Virus record (IMG/VR): IMGVR_UViG_3300028589_000042
Location: 1-26,126 of that record
Length of the DNA stretch: 26,126 bases
Source: a virus
Direction: 5' to 3' (one strand)
The translations under genes and the position numbers were made by a program. Positions 2,033 through 20,792 of the stretch are shown in pieces. Position 1 is the first letter of the stretch; every line of letters starts with the position of its first letter. A model generated the notes under the pieces. It ran no database searches, had not been told where the DNA came from, and saw nothing but the letters and a program-made list of their open reading frames with translations.

Positions 2033-3931
2033 GTGCCTGACACCCCCACGTATGGCGATGTCCTGCGGTACGACGACCGGACGGTCCCGCAGGCCACCGG
2101 AGGCGTGAGCCAGAACCCGTTCGCTGAGCTGGGCAGCACCGGCCTGAAGCGTGCCACCGGCATCATCGACGAGGAGTACCTGCCCGCCCTGCGTGGGCGC
2201 AAGGCCGTCAAGGTCTTCAAGGAGATGTCCGACAACGACCCGATGGTGGGGTCGCTGCTCTTCGCGGTTGAGAAGCTGCTGCGTCAGGTCACCTGGCGAG
2301 TGGAGTCCGTGGACAACACCCCCGAGCACGCCCAGGCCCAGGAGTTCCTGGAGCAGTGCATGGAGGACATGTCCCACACCTGGGACGACCTGATCGCCGA
2401 GATCCTCTCCTGCCTCATCTACGGCTGGTCCTGGCACGAGATCGTCTACAAGAAGCGGGTCGGGCCCTGGGAGAAGGACCCCACCAAGAAGAGCAAGTTC
2501 ACCGACGGGAAGATCGGCTGGCGCAAGATGCCGGTCCGCTCCCAGGAGACCCTGCTGCGCTGGATGTTCGACGAGACCGGCGGCGTGCAGGCCATGGTGC
2601 AGATGGCCCCGCCGTACTACACGACCACCGTGCTGCCGATCAACAAGTCCCTGCTGTTCCGCACCGGGCTGCACAAGGGCAACCCCGAGGGTCGCTCGAT
2701 CCTGCGCACCGCCTACCGCCCCTGGTTCATGAAGAAGCGCCTGGAGGAGTTCGAGGCCATCGGCGTCGAGCGTGACCTCGCAGGCATGCCCGTGGCCAAG
2801 GTGCCCTCCTCCTACATGAACGCCCAGAAGGGGAGCAAGGAGCACAACGCCTTCCTCGCCTTCAAGCGCATGGTGCAGAACGTCCGCCGGGACGAGCACG
2901 AGGGCCTGGTCTTGCCACTGGAGTACGACCCGGTCACCAAGCAGCCCATGTTCGAGTTCGAGCTGATGTCCTCGGGTGGAGCGCGCTCCTTCGACACCTC
3001 CGCGATCATCCAGCGCTACGAGCAGCGCATCCTGATGACCGTGCTGGCCGACTTCATCATGGTCGGCCACGAGGGTCAGGGCTCCTACGCGATGCACGTG
3101 GACAAGACCGGCATCTTCCGGGCCGCGCTGAACACCATCGCCGAGACCATCGCGGACACCTTCAACCGCCATGCCGTGCCCCGGCTGTTCGAGCTCAACG
3201 CCTGGAAGCTCGACGAGCTGCCCAAGATCGTCCCGAACAACGTCGACCCGCCCAACCTGGCCGAGCTGGGCCAGTTCATGACCTCGATGGCAGGCATGGG
3301 CATGGAGTGGTTCCCCGACCCCGACCTGGAGAAGTTCCTGCGCGAGGTGGCCCACCTGCCGGAGATGCCGGAGGAGGTCGAGGAGATGCGTCGGGACATG
3401 GCCCAGCAGTCCAACCTCATGTCCTACGCGCAGACCCGCATGGACGTGGAGGGGATGGCCCAGCAGGAGCAGCGGGTTGCCGCTGGCGAGTCCCCAGCAC
3501 AGGCTCAGATGGCCCAGGAGCAGCCCTCAGAGGCCGCGCAGGAGCAGCAGGTGGTCGGGGAGCAGCGTGCCCAGGCCAGGGCCTCTATGGACCCCGAGGT
3601 GCAGCAGTCGCAGCAGGTCCAGATGCAGCAGCAGATGGAAATGCAGGCTCAGGACCCCACCGCTCAGGTCAAGGCCGAGTCCGACCAGGCCAAGGCCAAG
3701 GCTGACATGGACATGAAGTCCATCGACCTGCAGACCCGAGAGCGCGATGCCAAGCGGGATCAGCAGCTCAAGGACCGTGACGCCAAGCGGGACCAGGACG
3801 TCAAGGACAAGGACGCCAAGCGCGACCAGCAGATGAAGGACGCGGACCTCAAGCGCAAGGAGCGCGAGGCCCGGATCAAGGCGAAGAACGGGCCCACTCC
3901 CCCGAAGACCAAGAAGAAGGCCAAGCCATGA
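2033..3931 (+). CDS. Phage portal protein
   Basis: This is the dodecameric ring protein at the capsid vertex through which DNA is packaged and ejected. GTG 2033 has GAGAGGA (2019-2025) seven bases upstream. The 632 residues contain the usual portal layout: an early helical region (MVGSLLFAVEKLLRQVTWRV), a conserved-looking core (CLIYGWSWHEIVYKK), and a stem-to-crown region around residues 300-440 (RILMTVLADFIMVG). The type resembles the DUF935/Mu gp29-like portals common in actinophages. The last 190 residues are unusual: Gln-rich, then Lys/Asp-rich with three near-identical 11-residue repeats from residue 572 (DAKRDQQLKDR and variants), predicting a long charged helix. The papain-like protease gene starts within its stop codon. 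No terminase gene precedes it in this window. Confidence 0.88.
   Translation: MPDTPTYGDVLRYDDRTVPQATGGVSQNPFAELGSTGLKRATGIIDEEYLPALRGRKAVKVFKEMSDNDPMVGSLLFAVEKLLRQVTWRVESVDNTPEHAQAQEFLEQCMEDMSHTWDDLIAEILSCLIYGWSWHEIVYKKRVGPWEKDPTKKSKFTDGKIGWRKMPVRSQETLLRWMFDETGGVQAMVQMAPPYYTTTVLPINKSLLFRTGLHKGNPEGRSILRTAYRPWFMKKRLEEFEAIGVERDLAGMPVAKVPSSYMNAQKGSKEHNAFLAFKRMVQNVRRDEHEGLVLPLEYDPVTKQPMFEFELMSSGGARSFDTSAIIQRYEQRILMTVLADFIMVGHEGQGSYAMHVDKTGIFRAALNTIAETIADTFNRHAVPRLFELNAWKLDELPKIVPNNVDPPNLAELGQFMTSMAGMGMEWFPDPDLEKFLREVAHLPEMPEEVEEMRRDMAQQSNLMSYAQTRMDVEGMAQQEQRVAAGESPAQAQMAQEQPSEAAQEQQVVGEQRAQARASMDPEVQQSQQVQMQQQMEMQAQDPTAQVKAESDQAKAKADMDMKSIDLQTRERDAKRDQQLKDRDAKRDQDVKDKDAKRDQQMKDADLKRKEREARIKAKNGPTPPKTKKKAKP
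3746..3844 (+). repeat. Three 33-bp repeats coding hendecad units in the portal tail
   Basis: Three tandem units (3746-3778, 3779-3811, 3812-3844) encode DAKRDQQLKDR, DAKRDQDVKDK and DAKRDQQMKDA, with a decayed fourth unit beginning DLKRKER. An 11-residue period suits a hendecad coiled coil. Codons differ between units, so this is not a very recent DNA duplication. Confidence 0.75.
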
Positions 3932-4587
3932 CCGAGCGGGTGTTGGACTGGAAGCCGCGCTTCGACACCCGGTCGTTGGGCCATAAGGTCTCGCTTGCCT
4001 ACGCCCTGGAACGCCCGCTGCGGGCCCGGATCTGGAAGCGCACGGTCTGGCTCGACCAGGGCAGCGAGGGGGCCTGTGTGGGCTTCTCCTGCGCGCACGA
4101 GATGGCCCTCACCCCGCGCCGCTGGTCCCCGGAGTACACCGAGCAGATGGCACGGGTGCTCTACCGGGAGGCGCAGAAGCGTGACCAGTGGGCCGGGGAG
4201 AGCTACGAGGGCTCCTCGGTGCTGGGCGGGATGCAGGCGCTGAAGGACCGCGGGGAGATCAAGAGCTACCGCTGGTGCACCACCGTGGAGGAGGTGCTCT
4301 GGGCGGTGTCCTACATCGGCCCGGTGGTGATCGGGGTCAACTGGTACGCCGGGATGTTCGCCCCGGACGCCAACGGGCACCTGCACACCAAGGGACGGCT
4401 GGCCGGTGGGCACGCCATCGTCATCGGGGGCATCGACCCCAAGAACGAGCGGGTGTTGCTCTACAACTCCTGGGGCAAGGGCTGGGGCAAGGACGGCGCG
4501 GCCTGGTTGTCCTTCGCCGAGCTGGACCGGCTGCTGCATGAGGACGGAGAGTTCGCCGTCCCCCTCAAGACCCGGCTGGTGGTCTGA
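3928..4587 (+). CDS. Papain-like (C1 family) cysteine protease
   Basis: A 219-residue protein with the papain-family active-site pattern: the oxyanion Gln44 and catalytic Cys50 in DQGSEGACVGFS, the catalytic His162 in GGHAIVIGG, and Asn180 in YNSWGKGWG. These appear in the correct order and spacing for a compact C1 peptidase without a propeptide. There is no signal peptide, so it would act inside the infected cell or in the virion. The ATG overlaps the portal stop (ATGA) and the next micro-gene overlaps its own stop, so it is made with the portal. Possible roles are processing of head proteins or attack on host proteins after delivery. The enzyme class is well supported; the target is unknown. 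Confidence 0.85.
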   Translation: MTERVLDWKPRFDTRSLGHKVSLAYALERPLRARIWKRTVWLDQGSEGACVGFSCAHEMALTPRRWSPEYTEQMARVLYREAQKRDQWAGESYEGSSVLGGMQALKDRGEIKSYRWCTTVEEVLWAVSYIGPVVIGVNWYAGMFAPDANGHLHTKGRLAGGHAIVIGGIDPKNERVLLYNSWGKGWGKDGAAWLSFAELDRLLHEDGEFAVPLKTRLVV

Positions 4588-4649: not shown

Positions 4650-4888
4650 TGACTCCTCGACCGCACAGCACCACCTTCGCGGTGAAGAGCATGCTCCGGG
4701 TGCTGGCCATCGCCTTCTGGCTGTTGGGCTTCGTGCGTGCCTCGGACGCGCTCCGGATGGCCTATCACCCCGATGCCGTCTACTGGCCCTGGGTGGACGC
4801 CATCTTCGGGCTCTGTTTCTTCCTCATCGCCACCATCCTCTGGATGGAGGCCCGACATGTGGGGTCTTCCCCGGACAGGCATGAGTGA
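4649..4888 (+). CDS. Two-TM small membrane protein, 79 aa
   Basis: ATG 4649 overlaps the stop of the micropeptide. The protein has two hydrophobic segments, about residues 16-30 (LRVLAIAFWLLGFVR) and 50-68 (AIFGLCFFLIATILWM), joined by a loop with aromatic residues (HPDAVYWPWVD). The ends are polar. The size and two-TM plan would fit an accessory holin or other small phage membrane protein, but it lies about 2 kb before the endolysin, so I do not call it a holin. The next gene starts in its stop region. Confidence 0.6.
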   Translation: MTPRPHSTTFAVKSMLRVLAIAFWLLGFVRASDALRMAYHPDAVYWPWVDAIFGLCFFLIATILWMEARHVGSSPDRHE

Positions 4889-6825
4889 TGCTTGAGATGA
4901 CGCAGTCCTCCTTCGAGGAGGTCGAGAAGATGTCGCCGCGGGATGCCCCCGCGGTGATCGGCGCGCACTGGACCACCCGGCTGTCCCGGGTCGCCGACCG
5001 GGTCGAGCCCTACGCGGCCAAGCGCCGCAAGCCGATCAACCGCCCCCTGGTGGATCGACACCTGCCCACTGTGAAGCGGGTCGGCGGGAAGCTGGTCACC
5101 ACCGGGCGCACCAAGGCCGCCGAGACGATCCGCTCGATCTCCTACGACGTGTCCTCGATCAACGACAAGGACAAGCTGATCCGCGAGGTGGCCACCGGGC
5201 AGGGCAAGCTCCGCCCCGTGTCCAAGTCCTACATCCCTGGTAAGGGCTTCGTGCCTGCCTCCCAGATCCCCAAGACCCAGCTCCGCTCGCTGGCGCAGGG
5301 AGAGCGCAAGGCAGGGGTGGCCCGCCTGAAGCGACAGGCGGCCGAGCACTCCACCGCGACGAGGGAGCAGAACAACGCCATCTCCCGGGCGCACCGTGAG
5401 ATGACTGGGCCGCCTCGTCTCTTCGACCCGAACCGGCCCAGCCACTCCACCGTGAACTCGGGACGCAAGGCCTACGACCGGTTCAACTTCAGCCCCTTCA
5501 ACGCCCACACCGCGGGGATGCTGGGTGACGCCAAGGCCGCCGCGTTCAAGCATGGCGGTCGTCGGTCCAAGGGCTTCATCGCTGCCAAGCCCGACGCCTC
5601 GGATGCGGTGATGCGACACGAGACCGCGCACCTGACTCCCAAACGCTCCTCGTACCGGATGCAGAACTTCAACGCTGGGCAGCTGGCTCGGGAGGAGGCC
5701 CGCGCTGACATGGCGGGCAACCACTCCTCGATGCGCTACAAGTCCTCGCACCGGGCCATCAGCAACAAGGGTGAAGGATCGGCCTACGCCATGGCCGCCA
5801 AGAACCCGGTGGCCCGCTGGATGACCCACAAGCAGCAGCAGGCACAGGGCGGCCAGTACAAGGACATGTTCTCCAGAGAGAACATGAAGGGGTACCGCGA
5901 GGTGCAGAACCGCATCGCTGCCTCCCGGACGCGCAAGGGGCAGGTGCAGAAGTCGTACATCCCCGGGGTGGGCTGGAAGCCGATCACCGCCGCCACTGCC
6001 AAGCAGAAGGCCCGCATCCCTGGTGCGCACGCCAAGATGCACCGGGTCAACCGGCTGGACGCTGCGTACCAGAAGGGGGACGCCAACCTGCGGGACGCCG
6101 TCGCCGACCTGCCCAAGAAGCACTTTGGTGTCAAGCTCGACCGCGACTCCTGGACCGACCAGGCCGGGACCTACCGCAGGGGTAGCGCCAAGCGTGGCAA
6201 GAGCTACGTCGAGGGCTCTGCCACGACACGCACTAAGCAGAAGGTGATCCAGGCTCACGAGGACCAGCACGCAGCGCCTCGTCGCAGTGGCTACCGGCTG
6301 CACCGCCAGATCCACCCCAACAAGCAGAAGCTGATGCGTGAGGAGGCCCGCGCGGACTACCGCTCGGCGGGTCACTACAGCAACCCCAGGCAGGACTCCG
6401 GGTACGCCCACGTGGCGCGACGACGCGACAAGGCCCTCAAGCAGCCCAACCGTCCCGCCAAGGGATCTGGAATCCAGGCGCGCGTCATGCGCGAGTACGG
6501 AGAAACCGACTGGAAGAGGGCCACCAACCAGATGGCCTACGAGGGGCAGGCACAGCGAACACTCAGCACAGTGGGCTACACGATGAGCCCCAAGGTGCGG
6601 GATCGCTCCGTCGACGCCTACCGGGACCTGCAGAACCGGATGCGCGCCAAGGGCGTCCCCGAGGGCGGGGTCAAGAAGTCCTTCCAGCCCTGGGACGGGG
6701 TGCACTCCGAGGTGTCCAAGATGGGCCCAGACCAGAGTGAGTTGCACGTCGCAGGATCCTCAAATCAGAAGCGCAAGGCGCGTCTTCGCAAGCTCCCACC
6801 TGACGCCACCCGGAGGGTCTGTTGA
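4885..6825 (+). CDS. Protein with two tandem HExxH metallopeptidase-like modules, 646 aa
   Basis: Counting from GTG 4885 (ATG 4888 is equally possible), the protein carries two zincin-like sites. Module A has HETAH at 245-249 with EEARAD at 270-275; module B has HEDQH at 458-462 with EEARAD at 486-491. HExxH followed 20-25 residues later by a Glu is the gluzincin arrangement, and the repeated (R/K)xxYR and EEARAD context shows the modules are homologous. Three related linkers, VSKSYIPG at 112, VQKSYIPG at 354 and VKKSFQPW at 596, are spaced exactly 242 residues apart and bracket the modules. The protein is basic and soluble. It could be a virion-carried protease or effector cut into units at the linkers. 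The metallopeptidase call rests on motifs only. Confidence 0.65.
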   Translation: MMLEMTQSSFEEVEKMSPRDAPAVIGAHWTTRLSRVADRVEPYAAKRRKPINRPLVDRHLPTVKRVGGKLVTTGRTKAAETIRSISYDVSSINDKDKLIREVATGQGKLRPVSKSYIPGKGFVPASQIPKTQLRSLAQGERKAGVARLKRQAAEHSTATREQNNAISRAHREMTGPPRLFDPNRPSHSTVNSGRKAYDRFNFSPFNAHTAGMLGDAKAAAFKHGGRRSKGFIAAKPDASDAVMRHETAHLTPKRSSYRMQNFNAGQLAREEARADMAGNHSSMRYKSSHRAISNKGEGSAYAMAAKNPVARWMTHKQQQAQGGQYKDMFSRENMKGYREVQNRIAASRTRKGQVQKSYIPGVGWKPITAATAKQKARIPGAHAKMHRVNRLDAAYQKGDANLRDAVADLPKKHFGVKLDRDSWTDQAGTYRRGSAKRGKSYVEGSATTRTKQKVIQAHEDQHAAPRRSGYRLHRQIHPNKQKLMREEARADYRSAGHYSNPRQDSGYAHVARRRDKALKQPNRPAKGSGIQARVMREYGETDWKRATNQMAYEGQAQRTLSTVGYTMSPKVRDRSVDAYRDLQNRMRAKGVPEGGVKKSFQPWDGVHSEVSKMGPDQSELHVAGSSNQKRKARLRKLPPDATRRVC

Positions 6826-7631
6826 CCACCATCGTGCAGTCGCCTAACTACTACGAGGGCCGCGTGGCCCCCGTTCGCGTGGTGGTGGTGCACACCGGTG
6901 AGACCCCGGAGTCGGACACCGCGGCCGAGGGGATGGCCAACTGGTTCTCCCGGACGACCACTCGCGCCTCCGCCCACCTGTGCGTCGACCTGGACTCCAC
7001 GGTCCGCTGCGTCGACGACGAAGACACCGCCTGGGCCGCTCCTGGTGCCAACGCGGATGGCCTGCAGATCGAGCTGGCCGGACGCGCGGGACAGACCTCG
7101 GGGGACTGGGCAGACAAAGAGTCGGCGACCATCCTGACCCGTGCTGCTGCCGAGGTGGCGGTCTGGTGCATCAAGTACCGGATCCCGGCCCGGTGGCTCA
7201 CCGACAAGGAGCTGGCCGACGGCAAGACCATGGGGCTGACCACGCACGTGCAGGTCTCCCGGGTGTTCAAGCGCAGCGACCACTGGGATCCGGGCCCGAA
7301 CTTCCCCAGCGAGCTCTTCCTCAAGATGGTCGTGGACTTCATGCCCAAGGCCCCGGTGCAGCCGGTGCCGATTCAGCCCAAGCCCGCCAAGATCATCGTC
7401 CCGGCCTACCCGGGGCTGGTGCGGCGGGGACACCGCGGCAAGGCCGTGCTCGCGGTACAGCGACGCCTCAAGGAGCGCGGATGGCGGATCACCCAGGACG
7501 GCATCTTCGGCCCGGGCACGGAGTCGGTGGTGAAGGCCTTCCAGAAGGAGAAGCGACTTACAGCGGACGGCATCGTGGGCCCGATTACGTGGCGCAAGTT
7601 GTGGACAGCCCCAGGAGCGATCAAGCGATGA
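6822..7631 (+). CDS. Endolysin: N-acetylmuramoyl-L-alanine amidase with peptidoglycan-binding domain
   Basis: The enzyme cuts the amide bond between muramic acid and the stem peptide of the host wall at the end of infection. Residues 1-165 form an Amidase_2 (PGRP-like) domain: zinc ligands are likely His24 (VVVVHTGE), His142 (TTHVQVSR) and Asp156 (WDPGPNFP). A Pro-rich linker (about 172-190) leads to a PG_binding_1 domain at about 200-262, with two QRRLKERG/DGIFGPGT-type repeats. The TTG start at 6822 is set by GGAGGG (6812-6817) and overlaps the previous stop. The holin-like gene starts in its stop codon. No mycolate esterase (LysB) is seen nearby. Confidence 0.9.
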   Translation: MTTIVQSPNYYEGRVAPVRVVVVHTGETPESDTAAEGMANWFSRTTTRASAHLCVDLDSTVRCVDDEDTAWAAPGANADGLQIELAGRAGQTSGDWADKESATILTRAAAEVAVWCIKYRIPARWLTDKELADGKTMGLTTHVQVSRVFKRSDHWDPGPNFPSELFLKMVVDFMPKAPVQPVPIQPKPAKIIVPAYPGLVRRGHRGKAVLAVQRRLKERGWRITQDGIFGPGTESVVKAFQKEKRLTADGIVGPITWRKLWTAPGAIKR

Positions 7632-11330: not shown

Positions 11331-13271
11331 GTGACTGCAGGGATCCTCGACCCGTCCCCGGCGATGGCCGGGGCGCAGCTGAGCTCCACCGAGCAGGACC
11401 TGATCAGCCGGATCGACGCGGACACCAAGAACGCCCACACCCTGGCCAAGGTTGCCGGGGTGCTGGGCGCGTCCATGTTCGTCTACCGGATGTACATGCG
11501 GCGTCGGCTTCGGGAGGAGATGAAGGAGACCCTGCCGGAGAAGCTGCCTGTGATCGCCGGTGCGGTCTTCGGATCCTTCCTGCCGTCCTGGGTGCATGTG
11601 ATCGCTCCTGCGGTCCTGGCGGGCTACCTAGAGGGCCACAGGGCGGTCAAGCTCGGCAAGGTGCCCGAGCCCTACCTGCGAGACGTCGCCGAGACGTACG
11701 CCAGGGAGCTCGGGGAGCACATCAACGAGGTCAGCTACGACGCGATGATGCAGGGCTTCCATGCCCAGGTGAACCGTCGTGTGCCTGCGCGCCGGGCGAT
11801 GGAGAACGTCATCTCGGCGTACGGGGTGCCCGCGCGGACCATGAACGCCCTGGTGAAGATCTGGACCGGCGAGGACAACAAGGTGCTCTCCCGGAGCCCC
11901 TCTCCCAGCAAGCGGGACCAGAAGGCCGCCTCGCTCATCGAGCGGGCCTTCAAGCTGCGCTCGGAGCAGTTCGGTGACACCGAGGCCTGGACCGCCAGCC
12001 GTCAGGGCAAGCAGATCACCTGGATGTACAACCTGAGCAAGGGCACCCTCCCACCCGGCACCACTCGGGTCTGGCGCACCGCCCGAGACGAGCGGGTCTG
12101 TCCCTCCTGCGGGCCGCTGGACAAGACCGAGGTGCCGCTGGACCAGCCCTTCATCACCGACATGGGTGAGTACTGGTCCCCTCCGCTGCACCCCAAGTGC
12201 CGGTGCGACATCGACCTGGCCATGAGCATCACCCTCGCGGTCAAGGAGTCGGTGGGGAAGGCTATGGGCGATGATCCCTTTGACCGAGACCGACGCGGAC
12301 GATTCGCCCGTGACGAGGCTCGCCTGGCTCCTGAAGTGGCCCGGCCTGACTTTGAACCCGCGCCGGTCCGTCGCACCGCGCGTGAGGTGGCGGAGGAGTA
12401 CCGCCGCCTGAAGAAGACGAAGAAGAAGCCGTCCTTCAAGCCGGTCTCCTTGGGTGGCCCCAAGCTCGGCGGGGTGTCCTTCAAGCCCGTCGACTTCTCC
12501 GCCAAGGAGACGCCGCAGCTGGGCAAGCCCGACCTGGGCCAGAAGCCTGACTTCACTCAGCCGCGCCCGATCATCGGACGCGAGAAGCCGGTCATCCAGA
12601 AGCCGCCGTTGAAGCTGCCCGCGTTCAAGGGGCTGGAGCTGGACTTCCCCACGTTGGCCTTCGGGCCGACCCCCAAGGGCGTGGTGCGCCTGGCCGTCCC
12701 GGTCTACGGCATCAAGGCCAGCGACGAGATCGGTGTGGACATCTACACGGGTCCGAGCGAGCGGGTGTACGAGCGCTCCGAGCTGGACACCGCGCTGACG
12801 GCGTACTGGGACGCCGTCAAGGAGAAGGACATGATGATGACCTTCGGCCGGGAGGGTCACATCACCTACGAGGACCCGCACTGGCCGGACCACACCATGC
12901 ACGTGGAGAAGGCGATCTACGGATACGTCTGGAACGACGCGCTCTCCGCCGACCGGAACCAGCTGCACCGCGAGACCTACCCGGTGCTCATCATCGACAA
13001 CAACACCGGCAGGGAGTTCTACTTCGACGTCTCGGCCTACGAGCTGGCCCAGGAGAACGGCATCCTGGAGGAGCTGGAGGAGAAGAAGCCGGTCGTCTTC
13101 AAGATGCAGCACGGCTGGCCGGACGGGACGAACACCAAGCCCGGGCAGCATGGGCCAGACGTCATGCGCTACAACGAGGGCAACTGGCAGATCCAGGGCG
13201 AGATCGTCGACGACTCACTGCTCTCGGAGTACCCGCACTACCAGAGGGCCTACGTCACACCCATCGCGTAG
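11331..13271 (+). CDS. MuF-domain minor head protein with C-terminal extension, 646 aa
   Basis: GTG 11331 follows the previous stop by three bases. Residues 240-295 hold the Phage_Mu_F signature: VWRTARDERVCPSCGPLD (Cys257, Cys260) and LHPKCRCDI (His287, Cys290, Cys292), normally found in a minor head protein placed next to the portal. The N-terminus has two hydrophobic segments (about 39-54 and 71-100), unusual for a head protein. After the MuF domain come FDRDRRGRF (318-325), a Lys/Pro-rich linker, and a separate C-terminal domain (about 460-646) with no motif I can name. MuF proteins often carry toxin or enzyme domains at the C-terminus, so this domain may be an effector. The gene ends facing the minus-strand cassette. 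Confidence 0.8.
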   Translation: MTAGILDPSPAMAGAQLSSTEQDLISRIDADTKNAHTLAKVAGVLGASMFVYRMYMRRRLREEMKETLPEKLPVIAGAVFGSFLPSWVHVIAPAVLAGYLEGHRAVKLGKVPEPYLRDVAETYARELGEHINEVSYDAMMQGFHAQVNRRVPARRAMENVISAYGVPARTMNALVKIWTGEDNKVLSRSPSPSKRDQKAASLIERAFKLRSEQFGDTEAWTASRQGKQITWMYNLSKGTLPPGTTRVWRTARDERVCPSCGPLDKTEVPLDQPFITDMGEYWSPPLHPKCRCDIDLAMSITLAVKESVGKAMGDDPFDRDRRGRFARDEARLAPEVARPDFEPAPVRRTAREVAEEYRRLKKTKKKPSFKPVSLGGPKLGGVSFKPVDFSAKETPQLGKPDLGQKPDFTQPRPIIGREKPVIQKPPLKLPAFKGLELDFPTLAFGPTPKGVVRLAVPVYGIKASDEIGVDIYTGPSERVYERSELDTALTAYWDAVKEKDMMMTFGREGHITYEDPHWPDHTMHVEKAIYGYVWNDALSADRNQLHRETYPVLIIDNNTGREFYFDVSAYELAQENGILEELEEKKPVVFKMQHGWPDGTNTKPGQHGPDVMRYNEGNWQIQGEIVDDSLLSEYPHYQRAYVTPIA

Positions 13272-13313: not shown

Positions 13314-13685
13314 TCAGCCTTCACCCCTGGACTGCACCGTCGGTCCAGGGGTGTCGTGCTTCTTGCCGACCCAGTTCAGGTGCGGCTCGTGGGTCTTCTG
13401 GAACCGCAGGAAGGTGTAGACCCGGAAGACCAGCAGCACGTCGATGGCGATGCCGATGATCATCCCCCAGGCGTTCTGTGTCCAGGTCTGAGACAGGAGG
13501 GTGTCGCCCTTGGTGACCAGGCCGACGACGGAGCGGGCGTAGAGCAGGAAGATGATGATCACCCAGCCGGTGGCGTTCAGCGACGCAGGCCGGAACCAGT
13601 TGCGGGGCCGGTGCAGCACCAGGAAGAGCCCCGAGGCGATGAGTCCGGTGAGGATGATGACCCACCAGACGATGAGCAGCGTCAC
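13314..13685 (-). CDS. Three-TM membrane protein, 123 aa
   Basis: This is the last gene of the minus-strand cassette; its GTG start overlaps the stop of the upstream gene (GTGA). It has three hydrophobic segments: about 3-25 (LLIVWWVIILTGLIASGLFL), 39-60 (TGWVIIIFLLYA) and 73-92 (GMIIGIAIDVLLVFRVYTF). The C-terminus is polar and its codons contain the terminator-like stem. Small multi-pass proteins of this type are common in actinophages and are sometimes called holins; no motif decides it. An overlapping frame on the same strand (13321-13665) was rejected because it lacks membrane character and coupling. Confidence 0.68.
   Translation of the reverse strand: MTLLIVWWVIILTGLIASGLFLVLHRPRNWFRPASLNATGWVIIIFLLYARSVVGLVTKGDTLLSQTWTQNAWGMIIGIAIDVLLVFRVYTFLRFQKTHEPHLNWVGKKHDTPGPTVQSRGEG
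13322..13353. terminator. Convergent hairpin, terminator-like
   Basis: CACCCCTGGAC (13322-13332) and GTCCAGGGGTG (13343-13353) form a perfect 11-bp stem with a ten-base loop. It lies between the plus-strand MuF gene and the end of the minus-strand cassette and overlaps the last codons of the minus-strand gene, so it could end transcription from both sides. Confidence 0.55.
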
Positions 13686-13921
13686 GATTTCTCTCCCGAG
13701 CTTGGCGTGGCGTAGTACCTCAAGAATTGCTCGCAGAGCCAGTCATCGTAGTGATTGGCTGCGTTGTGCTCCCGGAGCCTGCTGGTGATCTCCTTGGATT
13801 CGTGCAGGTTGCGCACCGCTCGCTTCAGGTCACGGTCCGCCTGGGCATTGGAGTTCTCAGCGCATCGGAGCGCGGCTCGCGCCGCTGACTCTGGGCGGTG
13901 GCGCTTCCAGAACCATCTCAT
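13682..13921 (-). CDS. Small helical protein, 79 aa
   Basis: The ATG (complement of 13919-13921) overlaps the stop of the upstream gene. The product starts with a basic aromatic patch (MRWFWKRHRP) that could touch the membrane, followed by a charged helix and LREHNAANHYDDWL. The form resembles small actinophage proteins placed in DUF7620, but this is a tentative likeness. Codon third positions look less GC-rich than in the neighbouring head genes. It is coupled at both ends within the three-gene cassette. Confidence 0.6.
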   Translation of the reverse strand: MRWFWKRHRPESAARAALRCAENSNAQADRDLKRAVRNLHESKEITSRLREHNAANHYDDWLCEQFLRYYATPSSGEKS

Positions 13922-14256
13922 CGCTGTGGGCCTCGTTGCTTTTGAGTGCGTCGGTGGTCGAGTTCCTCTAGGAGCGAGGTGGTGGTTCTGGCCGCTTCGG
14001 TCGCCGCCTCGGCTCGCTCCTCTGCCTTCGACAGCGCGTCTCTAGTCTTCTGGTGTGCCTCTTGCTCCTTAGCGAAGGCGGCCTTCCAGGAGTCACGGTC
14101 AGCCTCGGCCATCTCCCTGGGTCGCTTCGTGTCCAGCACACCTGTGACGACCAACGCGAGGATGATCCCGCCTGGGCCCCACGTCACGAGGATAGAGACG
14201 AAATCAATCGTTGAGGGGTCTGGGGCGGCAGCAACCAGGCTGAGTGCCTCGATCAC
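13918..14256 (-). CDS. Single-TM protein with coiled-coil tail, 112 aa
   Basis: This is the first gene of the minus-strand cassette. GTG (complement of 14254-14256) is preceded by GGGGAG at good spacing. A single membrane segment at about 19-41 (VSILVTWGPGGIILALVVTG) is followed by a long charged helix (about 47-100, rich in Glu, Ala, Lys and Arg) that should form a coiled coil. This resembles a spanin-like or holin-like accessory membrane protein, but there is no lipobox or signal. It would be transcribed from the 94-base divergent region shared with the protease gene. Confidence 0.65.
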   Translation of the reverse strand: MIEALSLVAAAPDPSTIDFVSILVTWGPGGIILALVVTGVLDTKRPREMAEADRDSWKAAFAKEQEAHQKTRDALSKAEERAEAATEAARTTTSLLEELDHRRTQKQRGPQR

Positions 14257-14350: not shown

Positions 14351-15505
14351 ATGGATCCCATTGCCAAGGCGCTGGAGCAGCGTGGCGACACTCTCGCCGA
14401 GGTAGCCGAACTGCTGTATGGCGATGGTGCCTGGGAGTACGTCTCCAAGAAGAGCAACTCAGATCAGCAGCGCCGCGAGCGCCGACAGGCTCAGGTGGGA
14501 CTGGCTTCCAACATCCTCGGCCTCGCCGCGGGTACCGCAGGCACCGCCGAGGCAGCTCGGCAGTACCGGGACGCCAAGCAGGAGGCCTCCGGCGTGAAGC
14601 CGTACGCCGCCAAGCACCGCGCCGAAGGTCGGATCGCCAGTCTCAAGCCCATCAAGGCAACCGCCGGTCTGATCCGTCGTCACCCGGTGAAGGTCGCCGC
14701 CGCGGGCCTCGGCCTGCAGGTCGGCAACGTGGCCGGGGATGCCGTGGCCAACCGGGTGCTGGCCCGGTCCGCGAAGAAGAAGCCTGTCTCCAAGGGTCTG
14801 GTCAAGGACTCCAAGCAGGTCTACGGCAACGTGAAGACGACCGCCCAGAACGCCGAGCGTGCCTCGGAGGCTGCGGCGAGCAGCGCCGAGAAGGTCGAGC
14901 GGCTCATCCCCAGCCAGAAGAAGGCTGTGGTGCTCGGTGCCGGGGCGGTCTCGGCACTCGGTGCCTCCACCTACGGGGCCAGCTACTACGGCACCAAGCA
15001 CGGCACCCGGGCCGCGGCGAAGCCCAAGAAGCAGCGGAAGTTCAAGCTGCACACGGTGGACACCAAGGCGGGCACGGTCGAGAAGAAGTTCGACTGGGAT
15101 GCCACCTTCGAGATCTCCAAGAAGGACGACGACAAGCGTCAGGTCTTCGGCTGGGCCTCGGTCATCACCAAGGACGGCGCACCGGTGGTCGACCTCCAGG
15201 ACGACTACATGGCCATGGAGACCATCGAGAAGGCCGCCTACGACTACGTGAAGTCCTCCCGCAAGGGCGGGGACATGCACCGCCGCAACGGGGCTGAGCC
15301 GCACCACGTCTCGGACATGATCGAGTCGTTCGTGGTGACCGAAGAGAAGAAGGAAAAGCTCGGCCTCCCTGCTGACTTCCCCACGGGCTGGCTGGTCGGA
15401 TTCCAGGTCAACGACGAGGACACCTGGAAGCTCGTCAAAGACGGGAAGCGAACGCAGTTCTCCATCCACGGCTCCGGCCAGCGCGTAGAAAAGGTACTCG
15501 ACTGA
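14351..15505 (+). CDS. XkdF-like prohead protease (Peptidase_S78_2 type) with long N-terminal extension
   Basis: The C-terminal 130 residues match the XkdF-like head protease pattern: VFGWASV at 265, VVDLQDDYM, IEKAAYDYV, His310 in GDMHRRNG, a WLVGFQVNDEDTWKLVKDGK segment, and Ser371 in TQFSIHGSG. His310 and Ser371 are the likely catalytic pair. Such enzymes cut scaffold and capsid proteins during prohead maturation. The N-terminal 250 residues are unusual: basic and helical, with a Gly/Ala hydrophobic stretch at 192-215 ending in SYYGTKH, a form repeated in neighbouring head proteins. The motif IAKAL occurs at 4-8. The next gene starts in its stop codon (TGATG). Confidence 0.78.
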   Translation: MDPIAKALEQRGDTLAEVAELLYGDGAWEYVSKKSNSDQQRRERRQAQVGLASNILGLAAGTAGTAEAARQYRDAKQEASGVKPYAAKHRAEGRIASLKPIKATAGLIRRHPVKVAAAGLGLQVGNVAGDAVANRVLARSAKKKPVSKGLVKDSKQVYGNVKTTAQNAERASEAAASSAEKVERLIPSQKKAVVLGAGAVSALGASTYGASYYGTKHGTRAAAKPKKQRKFKLHTVDTKAGTVEKKFDWDATFEISKKDDDKRQVFGWASVITKDGAPVVDLQDDYMAMETIEKAAYDYVKSSRKGGDMHRRNGAEPHHVSDMIESFVVTEEKKEKLGLPADFPTGWLVGFQVNDEDTWKLVKDGKRTQFSIHGSGQRVEKVLD

Positions 15506-17881: not shown

Positions 17882-18979
17882 ATGGCCAAGCGCGTAAGAG
17901 AAATCCGTGACCTGATCATCGACGAGGTGTCGTTGGTCGACCGGGGAGCGAATCAGCACGCGGCAGTGACTATCGCCAAGTCTTATGACGGCGAGGAGGA
18001 CCAGGGAATGGACATCTACGACGAGCAGGGCAACCCGCTCGACGCCGACTCCCTTGAGGACGGGGCCATCGTCTACGGCGAAGACGGCCAGGCGTACCTC
18101 TTCGAGCTCGGTGACGACGACGAGGCTGAGGGCGTCCACGAGGACGACCTTGAGGCTGAGTACGAGGAAGAGCTGGAGCCCGAGCTTGTCGGGAAGGCCT
18201 TCAACTTCAACTCTGCGAACCGCTGGGCTCGCACTGTTGGCCGGGGCGGCAAGCCCCCGCGCGGCGCGAAGGACTCCGTCACTGGCATCAAGGGCCAGCT
18301 GGGCGGCCCGAAGGGCAAGAAGGGCCCGAAGCGCAACGACGGCGGTGTCCGCGGCGCTCGCGCCTCCTTCGGTGAAGGGCACGCCAAGTTCGCTCGCAAC
18401 CACCCCAGCGCTCACTCGGCACTCATCTACGGAGGCGGCGGCGCGGCTGCGGCTGGCGTCGGCGGTGCCACCTACTACGGAGTGAAGAAGAACATGGGTG
18501 CTGCTGACATCCTTCGCGAGGAGCTGTCCAAGGCTCTGAACGATGACGACCGCGACTACGCGATCTCCAAGGCGCTTGAGGCCGTTGACGCCTACGCCGA
18601 CCAGGCTGCTGAGGCCGAGGAGATCGCCAAGGCCGAGCGCGAGCTTCGCCTGGACCGTGAGTACACGGAGATCGCCAAGTCCTACAACCTGCCGGTGCAC
18701 CCCGAGGTGCTCGGCCCGGTGATGAAGCGTCTCGCGGAGTACATGTCCGACGAGGACTGTGAGGTCATCGCCAAGTGCTTCGAGGCCGCCTCTGAGGCGC
18801 TCTTCGAGGAGACCGGCTACATGGGTGGCGGCGACAACGTCGACATCTACCAGCAGGTCGAGGCAGCTGCCATGCAGCACGTCGGCAAGGCCGGTGTGTC
18901 CCACGAGCAGGTCGTCGCAGACCTCTTCGACATGAACCCTGGCGCGTACGACGAGTACCTCGCCGAGACCCAGCACTGA
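17882..18979 (+). CDS. Probable capsid scaffold or head-maturation protein, 365 aa
   Basis: ATG 17882 follows a 41-base gap with a weak GAGCGAGG ribosome site. The N-terminus IIDEVSLVDRGANQHAAV (12-28) is the segment that opens many phage head proteases and their scaffold partners. An acidic region (about 36-100), a basic Gly-rich region, a Gly/Ala hydrophobic stretch at 180-203 (GGGGAAAAGVGGATYYGVKK) and a long acidic helical C-terminus follow. The helical, acidic C-terminus directly before the decoration and major capsid genes is typical of scaffolds. IAKSY (31-35), VGKAF (103-107), ELSKAL, AISKAL and IAKSY (264-268) may be cleavage sites. No catalytic residues are seen. Confidence 0.6.
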   Translation: MAKRVREIRDLIIDEVSLVDRGANQHAAVTIAKSYDGEEDQGMDIYDEQGNPLDADSLEDGAIVYGEDGQAYLFELGDDDEAEGVHEDDLEAEYEEELEPELVGKAFNFNSANRWARTVGRGGKPPRGAKDSVTGIKGQLGGPKGKKGPKRNDGGVRGARASFGEGHAKFARNHPSAHSALIYGGGGAAAAGVGGATYYGVKKNMGAADILREELSKALNDDDRDYAISKALEAVDAYADQAAEAEEIAKAERELRLDREYTEIAKSYNLPVHPEVLGPVMKRLAEYMSDEDCEVIAKCFEAASEALFEETGYMGGGDNVDIYQQVEAAAMQHVGKAGVSHEQVVADLFDMNPGAYDEYLAETQH

Positions 18980-19423: not shown

Positions 19424-20419
19424 ATGAACCCCACCCAGAGCGACCTTCACGTCAACGCCCCACTGACGAACGTCTCGGTCGCATACATCCAGAAGTCCGA
19501 TGCGTTCATCGCGACCAAGGTCTTCCCGAAGGTGTCGGTCTCCAAGCAGTCCGACCTCTACTGGAAGTACTCGAAGTCCGACTGGCGTCGTACCGACGTG
19601 CAGCGTCGTGCGCCCTCCACCGAGACCCCCGGTGTCGGCTGGAACGTGACCACGGACAGCTACTTCGCGCACGTCTACGGCGTCCACAAGGACATCGACG
19701 ACCAGCTCCGTGCGAACGCTGACTCGCGGTTCCGTCTCGACTCCGACGCCACCTCGTTCGTCACCAACCAGCTCCTCCTGAAGCGCGACCTCGACTGGGC
19801 CGCGACCTACTTCAAGACCGGCGTCTGGGGCACCGACTACACCGGCGTGGACTCCGCCCCCACGGGCGCGCAGCTCCTGCGCTGGTCGGTCACCTCCTCC
19901 GACCCGATCTCCCAGCTGGCCACGCTGCAGATCAACTTCGTGCAGCAGACCGGCTTCAAGGCCAACACGCTGGTCATCGGCGCGAACGTGCTGAAGGCCC
20001 TGAAGAACCACCCGGCCATCATCGACCGGATCAAGTACACCCAGAAGGGAATCGTGACGACTGACCTCATCGCGACCCTCTTCGACGTGGACAAGATCCT
20101 GGTCTCGTACGCCACGGTGGCCACCGGCCCGCAGATCCCGGACGCAGCTGCCCAGGACGCTGCTGCGACCTTCGACTTCATCGCGAACCCGAACTCGGCG
20201 CTCCTGTGCTACACCCCGAGCTCCCCCTCGCTGATGCAGCCTGCGGCTGGCTACACCTTCACCTGGAACGGCTACCTCAGCGGCAACGCCGAGGGCATTC
20301 GGGTCAAGCGGTTCCGGATGGAGCAGATCGCCTCCGACCGCATCGAGGGTGAGATGACCTACGACATGCGGGTCATCTCCAAGGACGTCGGCGTCTACCT
20401 GAACAACATCGTCGCCTGA
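19424..20419 (+). CDS. Major capsid protein
   Basis: This is the main shell protein, 331 residues, with GAGAGG before ATG 19424. The start (LTNVSVAYIQKSDAFIATKV, then FPKV) is characteristic of a large actinophage capsid family with the HK97 fold (Phage_cap_E-like). Further features are VYGVHKDIDDQLRANAD, the helix NQLLLKRDLDWAATYF, NTLVIGANVLKALKNHP and the C-terminal MTYDMRVISKDVGVYL. It lies between the decoration protein and the connectors, and a very strong hairpin follows 12 bases beyond its stop. There is no long N-terminal delta domain, consistent with a separate scaffold. Confidence 0.9.
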   Translation: MNPTQSDLHVNAPLTNVSVAYIQKSDAFIATKVFPKVSVSKQSDLYWKYSKSDWRRTDVQRRAPSTETPGVGWNVTTDSYFAHVYGVHKDIDDQLRANADSRFRLDSDATSFVTNQLLLKRDLDWAATYFKTGVWGTDYTGVDSAPTGAQLLRWSVTSSDPISQLATLQINFVQQTGFKANTLVIGANVLKALKNHPAIIDRIKYTQKGIVTTDLIATLFDVDKILVSYATVATGPQIPDAAAQDAAATFDFIANPNSALLCYTPSSPSLMQPAAGYTFTWNGYLSGNAEGIRVKRFRMEQIASDRIEGEMTYDMRVISKDVGVYLNNIVA

Positions 20420-20489: not shown

Positions 20490-20792
20490 ATGATCAGTCC
20501 ATGGGGAGTGGACCACGGAGCCGACGTGGTCTCCAAGCGTCTTTCTCACTACGTCGCTGGCGGGGCGTTGGGTGCCGGTGCAGGCGTGGCGGGCGACCAG
20601 ATCATGCGTCGCACCGACAAGGAGTACAAGGCCAAGGCGCGCAAGGACCCTGTGGGTCTCGCCGCCGTCGGAGGTCTTGGTGGTGTCGCTGGTGGCACCG
20701 CCCTGGCCGGTCCCCGGGTCGGTCTCGGGCTGGGAGCCGGTGTTGCTGGTTCGCTGTACGCGCTTAACCGGAAGAAGAAGAAGGAACGATGA
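20490..20792 (+). CDS. Small glycine-zipper protein, 100 aa
   Basis: AAAGGAG (20477-20483) precedes ATG 20490. The protein has Gly/Ala hydrophobic stretches at about 21-35 (YVAGGALGAGAGVAG) and about 55-92 (LAAVGGLGGVAGGTALAG and VGLGLGAGVAGSLYAL), ending in a basic NRKKKKER tail. VVSKRL at 13-18 resembles the motif of the scaffold. It is the smallest of the set of glycine-zipper head-region proteins and nearly consists of that module alone, so it may be a membrane or self-assembly element. The next gene overlaps its stop by four bases. Confidence 0.65.
   Translation: MISPWGVDHGADVVSKRLSHYVAGGALGAGAGVAGDQIMRRTDKEYKAKARKDPVGLAAVGGLGGVAGGTALAGPRVGLGLGAGVAGSLYALNRKKKKER

Follow-up and report, generated by a model that had tools for sequence, protein, structure and literature searches.

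What is a protein with two HExxH sites doing among the head genes of a phage? The question is raised by a fragment of 26,126 bases that belongs to an uncultivated virus (IMG/VR), hereafter the window. Its head module consists, in this order, of portal, C1 protease, a 646-aa ORF, amidase/endolysin, a 990-aa protein, MuF-like protein, XkdF-type protease, putative scaffold, a small presumed decoration protein, major capsid protein, connectors and a putative major tail protein (Table 1). The 646-aa ORF begins with GTG at 4885, an ATG at 4888 being equally good. A sequence-only reading had described it as a duplicated metallopeptidase, or a decayed relative of one, built as a polyprotein that is cut at three evenly spaced KS(Y/F) linkers. 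The elements on which that description was based are placed exactly: the linkers begin at residues 112, 354 and 596, each 242 apart, and both HETAH and HEDQH are accompanied by REEARAD.

Table 1. Features of the 646-aa ORF and of the surrounding head module.
Feature	Position	Strand	Remarks
Portal protein	2033..3931	+	Portal_Mu, E 1.5e-35; anchors the head module
Papain-like C1 cysteine protease	3928-4587		phrog_16701, E 1.7e-52; Pfam C1, E 0.0014
Polyprotein-like basic ORF, 646 aa, 72.3 kDa, pI 10.8	4885..6825	+	Leader, two HExxH modules, C-terminal peptide
Leader unit, residues 1-114	4885..5226	+	12.8 kDa, basic, ends VSK
VSKSYIPG (residue 112)	5218..5241	+	Cleavage proposed after K114 (codon 5224-5226); same element follows the tag in L009 and L011
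Module A, A-type zincin-like, residues 115-356	5227..5952	+	26.9 kDa
HETAH, residues 245-249	5617..5631	+	Putative zinc site, module A
REEARAD, residues 269-275	5689..5709	+	Putative third-ligand Glu, module A
VQKSYIPG (residue 354)	5944..5967	+	Proposed between-module processing site after K356
Module B, B-type zincin-like, residues 357-598	5953..6678	+	27.4 kDa
HEDQH, residues 458-462	6256..6270	+	Putative zinc site, module B
REEARAD, residues 485-491	6337..6357	+	Putative third-ligand Glu, module B
VKKSFQPW (residue 596)	6670..6693	+	Third proposed site, after K598; matching place in L051: ALAKNFTPWDGITSE
C-terminal peptide	6712..6822	+	VSKMGPDQSELHVAGS...
N-acetylmuramoyl-L-alanine amidase/endolysin	6822-7631		Peptidoglycan-binding domain; inside the head module
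MuF-like protein	11331-13271
XkdF-type head protease	14351..15505	+	Pfam Peptidase_S78_2 (PF14550), E 6e-20, above the curated cut-off
Putative scaffold/core protein	17882..18979	+	Repeated (V/I)(S/A/G)K(S/A) motifs; N-terminal EVSLVDRGANQHAAVTIAKS
Major capsid protein	19424..20419	+	E-type by tblastn matches
Tagged 100-aa small protein	20490..20792	+	N-terminal tag MISPWGVDHGADVVSKRL; the one tagged protein of the window

Searches with the whole ORF among phages, viral contigs and genome contigs, with part of it among plasmids, and with a four-row alignment among genome contigs found no homologue. Relatives were reached only through a search with the portal, which gave 43 related loci, and then through alignments and the tag pattern described below. 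Among the portal-derived and later loci, 11 modules are present in 9 contigs including the window: two each in the window ORF and in L051, and one in each of seven other contigs.

Modules A and B are about 28% identical and, judged by their alignment, truly homologous (local score 123; mean 42, sd 7 and maximum 71 in 500 shuffles). A tree separates an A-type, comprising window module A, module 2 of L051, L009 and L011, from a B-type comprising window module B, module 1 of L051, L052, L055, L006 and L007. Pairwise identity among the modules is mostly 20-40%, reaching 72% between L006 and L007. Window module B pairs with module 1 of L051 (54%); for window module A the nearest sequences are the A-type modules of L011 (39%) and L051 (37%). 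The order of the types is A then B in the window and B then A in L051, with KS(Y) sites at the joints in both, and each type also occurs as a free-standing protein in relatives, usually adjoining the portal. By these comparisons A and B are anciently diverged subfamilies combined in a fusion, and the modules behave as units that can be exchanged. The duplication proposed earlier thus survives as homology. As a simple and fresh event it does not, given the diverged types and their reversed order in L051; a recent duplication was rejected on the low identity between A and B and on the closer similarity of each type to its counterparts in L051 and L011. Nor does the equal spacing of the linkers, also considered as a meaningful feature, carry any meaning. 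The spacings in L051 are 238 and 276, so the repeated 242 must be a coincidence of compensating indels.

What has been kept constant in these diverged modules is the series K-S-...-G-...-G-...-HExxH-...-R-...-REExRA, in which HExxH and REExRA are invariant in 11/11 modules (9 contigs); in the two modules of the window, the distance from the second His to REE is 21-24 residues. Gluzincin peptidases, for example those of the M78/ImmA type, combine HExxH with a downstream Glu. The invariant residues fit what would be expected of a conserved zinc site of the gluzincin type, with putative ligand roles. Conservation in homologues had been suggested as a check on the zinc site, and as a sequence pattern the site is supported by it. 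The modules are unlikely to be decayed metallopeptidases, since HExxH and REExRA have remained invariant at identities of mostly 20-40%.

Like gluzincins, the modules have HExxH followed by a helix-like REExRA segment; unlike gluzincins, they gave no family match above significance in Pfam, PHROG or PDB. The best sub-threshold Pfam matches among the ten members scanned were Peptidase_M76 (E 0.11), SprT-like (0.15) and AbiH (0.22), the first two being zinc-peptidase families. Structure prediction and a fold search had likewise been suggested beforehand. Two AlphaFold2 models were of too low quality (pLDDT 54 and 58) to demonstrate a zincin fold; they place HExxH and REE on nearby helices, and Foldseek recognised no zincin with either of them; its matches, mostly to ribosomal S7 at 13-19 Å, were dismissed as noise. 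The modules have the sequence features of gluzincins, and because these are features of sequence, with fold and activity putative, we call them zincin-like and do not assign them to the gluzincins.

The single-module proteins of the relatives point to what the linkers may be. Six of the seven open with a tag of the consensus M.SA(F/W)GV(D/E)HG..(I/V)SK, and KS(Y/F/L) comes immediately after it, as in MISAWGVEDG-VSK-SYIPGKGF (L009) and MRSAFGVEHG-ISK-SFVNGKF (L052). The seventh (L100) starts with MATMDEIANGL-IIK-SFIPGKGW, so that IIKSFIPGKGW stands 13 residues from its start. The tag is carried by 74 distinct proteins of 63-827 aa, mostly small and basic with a median net charge of +12. All of them begin with M.SA(F/W)G(V/I)(D/E).. 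and have (I/V/F)xK 9-16 residues past the tag Ser (74/74), the residue before the Lys being mostly Ser and P1' mostly Ala, Gly or Ser. The codons of the tag show synonymous variation, which argues for selection on the peptide; an element acting at the DNA level was rejected on the same free variation.

In the 12 contigs mapped, the tag genes lie on the strand of the portal gene, either between portal and major tail protein or immediately ahead of the portal. When all 2.9 million viral contigs were scanned in an unbiased way with a DNA pattern of the tag, 18 stretches were obtained, and all 18 carry head or tail genes of this group. Wherever its genes were mapped, the tag is a peptide common to otherwise unrelated proteins of the head module. 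It was not seen in the stretches read from the nearest cultured relatives, ValentiniPuff, Ottawa and Laroye, or from MT835491, and the tag strings are absent from the literature searched, which had bioRxiv and most subscription papers outside its reach. A clear SAFG tag is missing from the 646-aa ORF itself; SSFEEVEKM, close to its N-terminus, is possibly a degenerate form. For the leader unit no homologue was found. A 259-aa tagged protein in a relative (L011:13993-14769; MKSAWGIEHVVSKRVVKVGEYIYHTTKN...), with KMSPDSSALHV at its C-terminus and a domain that matched nothing in a Pfam search, is a candidate for a further cargo enzyme.

The end of the tag has a counterpart elsewhere in the head module. 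(V/I/F)(S/A/E)K(A/S/G) occurs 91 times in 24 scaffold homologues where 4.1 are expected (22-fold) and 39 times in protease precursors where 6.6 are expected, counts that are not independent within a family. It occurs 0 times in the major capsid protein (3.2 expected) and 0 times in the decoration family (1.8 expected), and a chance origin was rejected. Because (V/I)xK before S, A or G is found both at the end of the tag in 74 proteins and in dense array in the putative scaffold, the KS(Y/F) joints of the ORF look like processing sites. The most likely cutting enzyme, we infer, is the gene product of 14351-15505, which shares its Peptidase_S78_2 match with XkdF-type head maturation proteases. 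This domain was found in the window and in 16 of 26 related contigs, the remainder being mostly short fragments. ISK stands directly before the S78_2 domain in the protease and was given no weight, since it may be part of the domain itself. In the literature searched we found no experimental report on the substrate specificity of XkdF-type proteases, and no description of the substrate motif and tagged cargo proposed here for Peptidase_S78_2.

The N-terminus of the scaffold (17882-18000) looks like an extended version of the tag, S..VD.G...IAK. Segments matching it occur in several PHROG profiles of head maturation proteases, which suggests that the tag mimics a junction between protease and scaffold. 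The C-terminal peptide of the ORF, KMGPDQSELHVAGS, has counterparts of the form KM(S)PDxSxxHV close to the C-terminal ends of other cargo proteins (L011, L009) and within some protease precursors (L028, L031). A similar sequence, NPTQSDLHV, forms the N-terminal arm of the major capsid protein and is conserved in relatives.

We propose that the ORF encodes a head cargo polyprotein of two zincin-like units belonging to a T4-like system of targeting and processing, a reading that we consider somewhat more probable than not. The polyprotein would consist of a basic leader, two modules and a short tail peptide, with (V/I)xK-S(Y/F) at the joints. During prohead maturation the XkdF-type protease would cut after the Lys, giving pieces of about 12.8, 26.9, 27.4 and 5.4 kDa and thereby freeing the two units of ~27 kDa. 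These would remain in the head, would probably be ejected with the DNA, and would then work as zinc peptidases against a host target. In the relatives, modules made singly would reach the head by means of the N-terminal tag, which would then be cut off. Cutting at the linkers had been suggested before. It agrees with the resemblance of the joints to the tag end and to the scaffold element and with the occurrence of the units as free-standing proteins; the accompanying picture of two like units has to give way to one of two diverged types. The literature searched yielded no proteomic study of virions from this uncultivated group.

It might be objected that KSY(I/V)PGKG(F/W) is a conserved beta-hairpin belonging to the fold of the module itself, and that the ORF product is an uncut multidomain minor head protein of 72 kDa. 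KSYIPG is indeed conserved together with flanking G, F/W and A beyond a minimal site, and a short hairpin appears at this place in both of the poor AlphaFold2 models. However, (V/I)xK before S, A or G also terminates the tag on dozens of proteins unrelated to the modules and crowds the scaffold, and the modules exist separately in relatives. We regard this explanation as unlikely, though it deserves to be taken seriously.

The function proposed for the units can be disputed as well. Modules as basic as these (pI about 11), in a system where most tagged cargo is small, basic and without known enzymes, could have a zincin-like fold and yet be non-catalytic, serving as DNA-binding internal head proteins; against this, H, E, H and both Glu of REE have stayed invariant at identities of mostly 20-40%, which makes such a role rather improbable in our view. 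We give still less credence to the idea that the modules are metallopeptidases which process the linkers themselves or form a second head-maturation protease. Their position in the head module beside substrates with matching motifs would suit it, but contigs such as G006 and G009 have the tag and the motif while no HExxH module was found in the head region read, and an XkdF-type protease is present in them.

Three other parts of the head module may be mentioned. The C1 protease (3928-4587), in which a Cys/His/Asn triad is recognisable by eye, sits between the portal and the HExxH ORF as a third hydrolase-type gene of the module; similar genes are found in Streptomyces and Gordonia phages. The amidase has weak homologues 3' of the HExxH gene in two relatives. 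Between MuF and the XkdF-type protease (13314-14256) three small ORFs lie on the minus strand within an otherwise plus-strand head module. Two of the three have hydrophobic N-terminal segments, and they may be a holin or membrane cassette.

The logic of targeting and processing is itself already known from T4 and SPN3US. In T4, gp21 removes the N-terminal peptides of internal proteins bearing a CTS, degrades the core and trims the capsid protein (PMC9958956). In SPN3US, gp245 cleaves many head propeptides, and the propeptides of SPN3US/phiKZ are mostly 111-254 residues long, with two of 20 and 24 (PMC10052503). The cargo proposed here is comparable to IPI-III and gpAlt of T4 in that head-module genes encode mostly small basic proteins with a common short N-terminal peptide, and the XkdF-type enzyme is comparable to gp21 as a dedicated prohead protease in the head module which, by our proposal, trims cargo and digests the core. 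As in T4 and SPN3US, the scaffold is rich in sites and the cargo has one near the N-terminus. In contrast to the T4 system, SA(F/W)GV(D/E)HG..(I/V)SK looks unrelated to the CTS, with which no common descent is claimed; the proposed cut is after Lys, the protease is of the XkdF type (S78_2), the cargo amounts to dozens of different proteins across the group, zincin-like modules among them, and the capsid protein carries no site. With the gp245 system of SPN3US/phiKZ this one has in common that many head proteins possess an N-terminal propeptide and contain repeated cleavage motifs; it differs in its leader, of ~13 residues, and in its motif, which ends in Lys.

Relative to the libraries and the incomplete literature searched, three things appear to be new: the tag, the link between it and XkdF-type phages, and the family of zincin-like modules. 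Taken together, the observations may reflect a head-loading code, for which we see a little over an even chance: one N-terminal peptide ending in an XkdF-type lysine cleavage site would load many small proteins, including a new zinc peptidase family whose members could also be fused as polyproteins that are cut in the prohead. The tag is short and the idea is directly testable by reporter fusion. If it is true, there would be a second, independent system of capsid targeting and processing besides that of T4, and a cleavage rule would be predicted for XkdF/S78_2, a widespread and uncharacterised class of proteases. A new zincin-like family would join the head cargo, and a single phage group would offer dozens of candidates for internal head proteins or ejected proteins.
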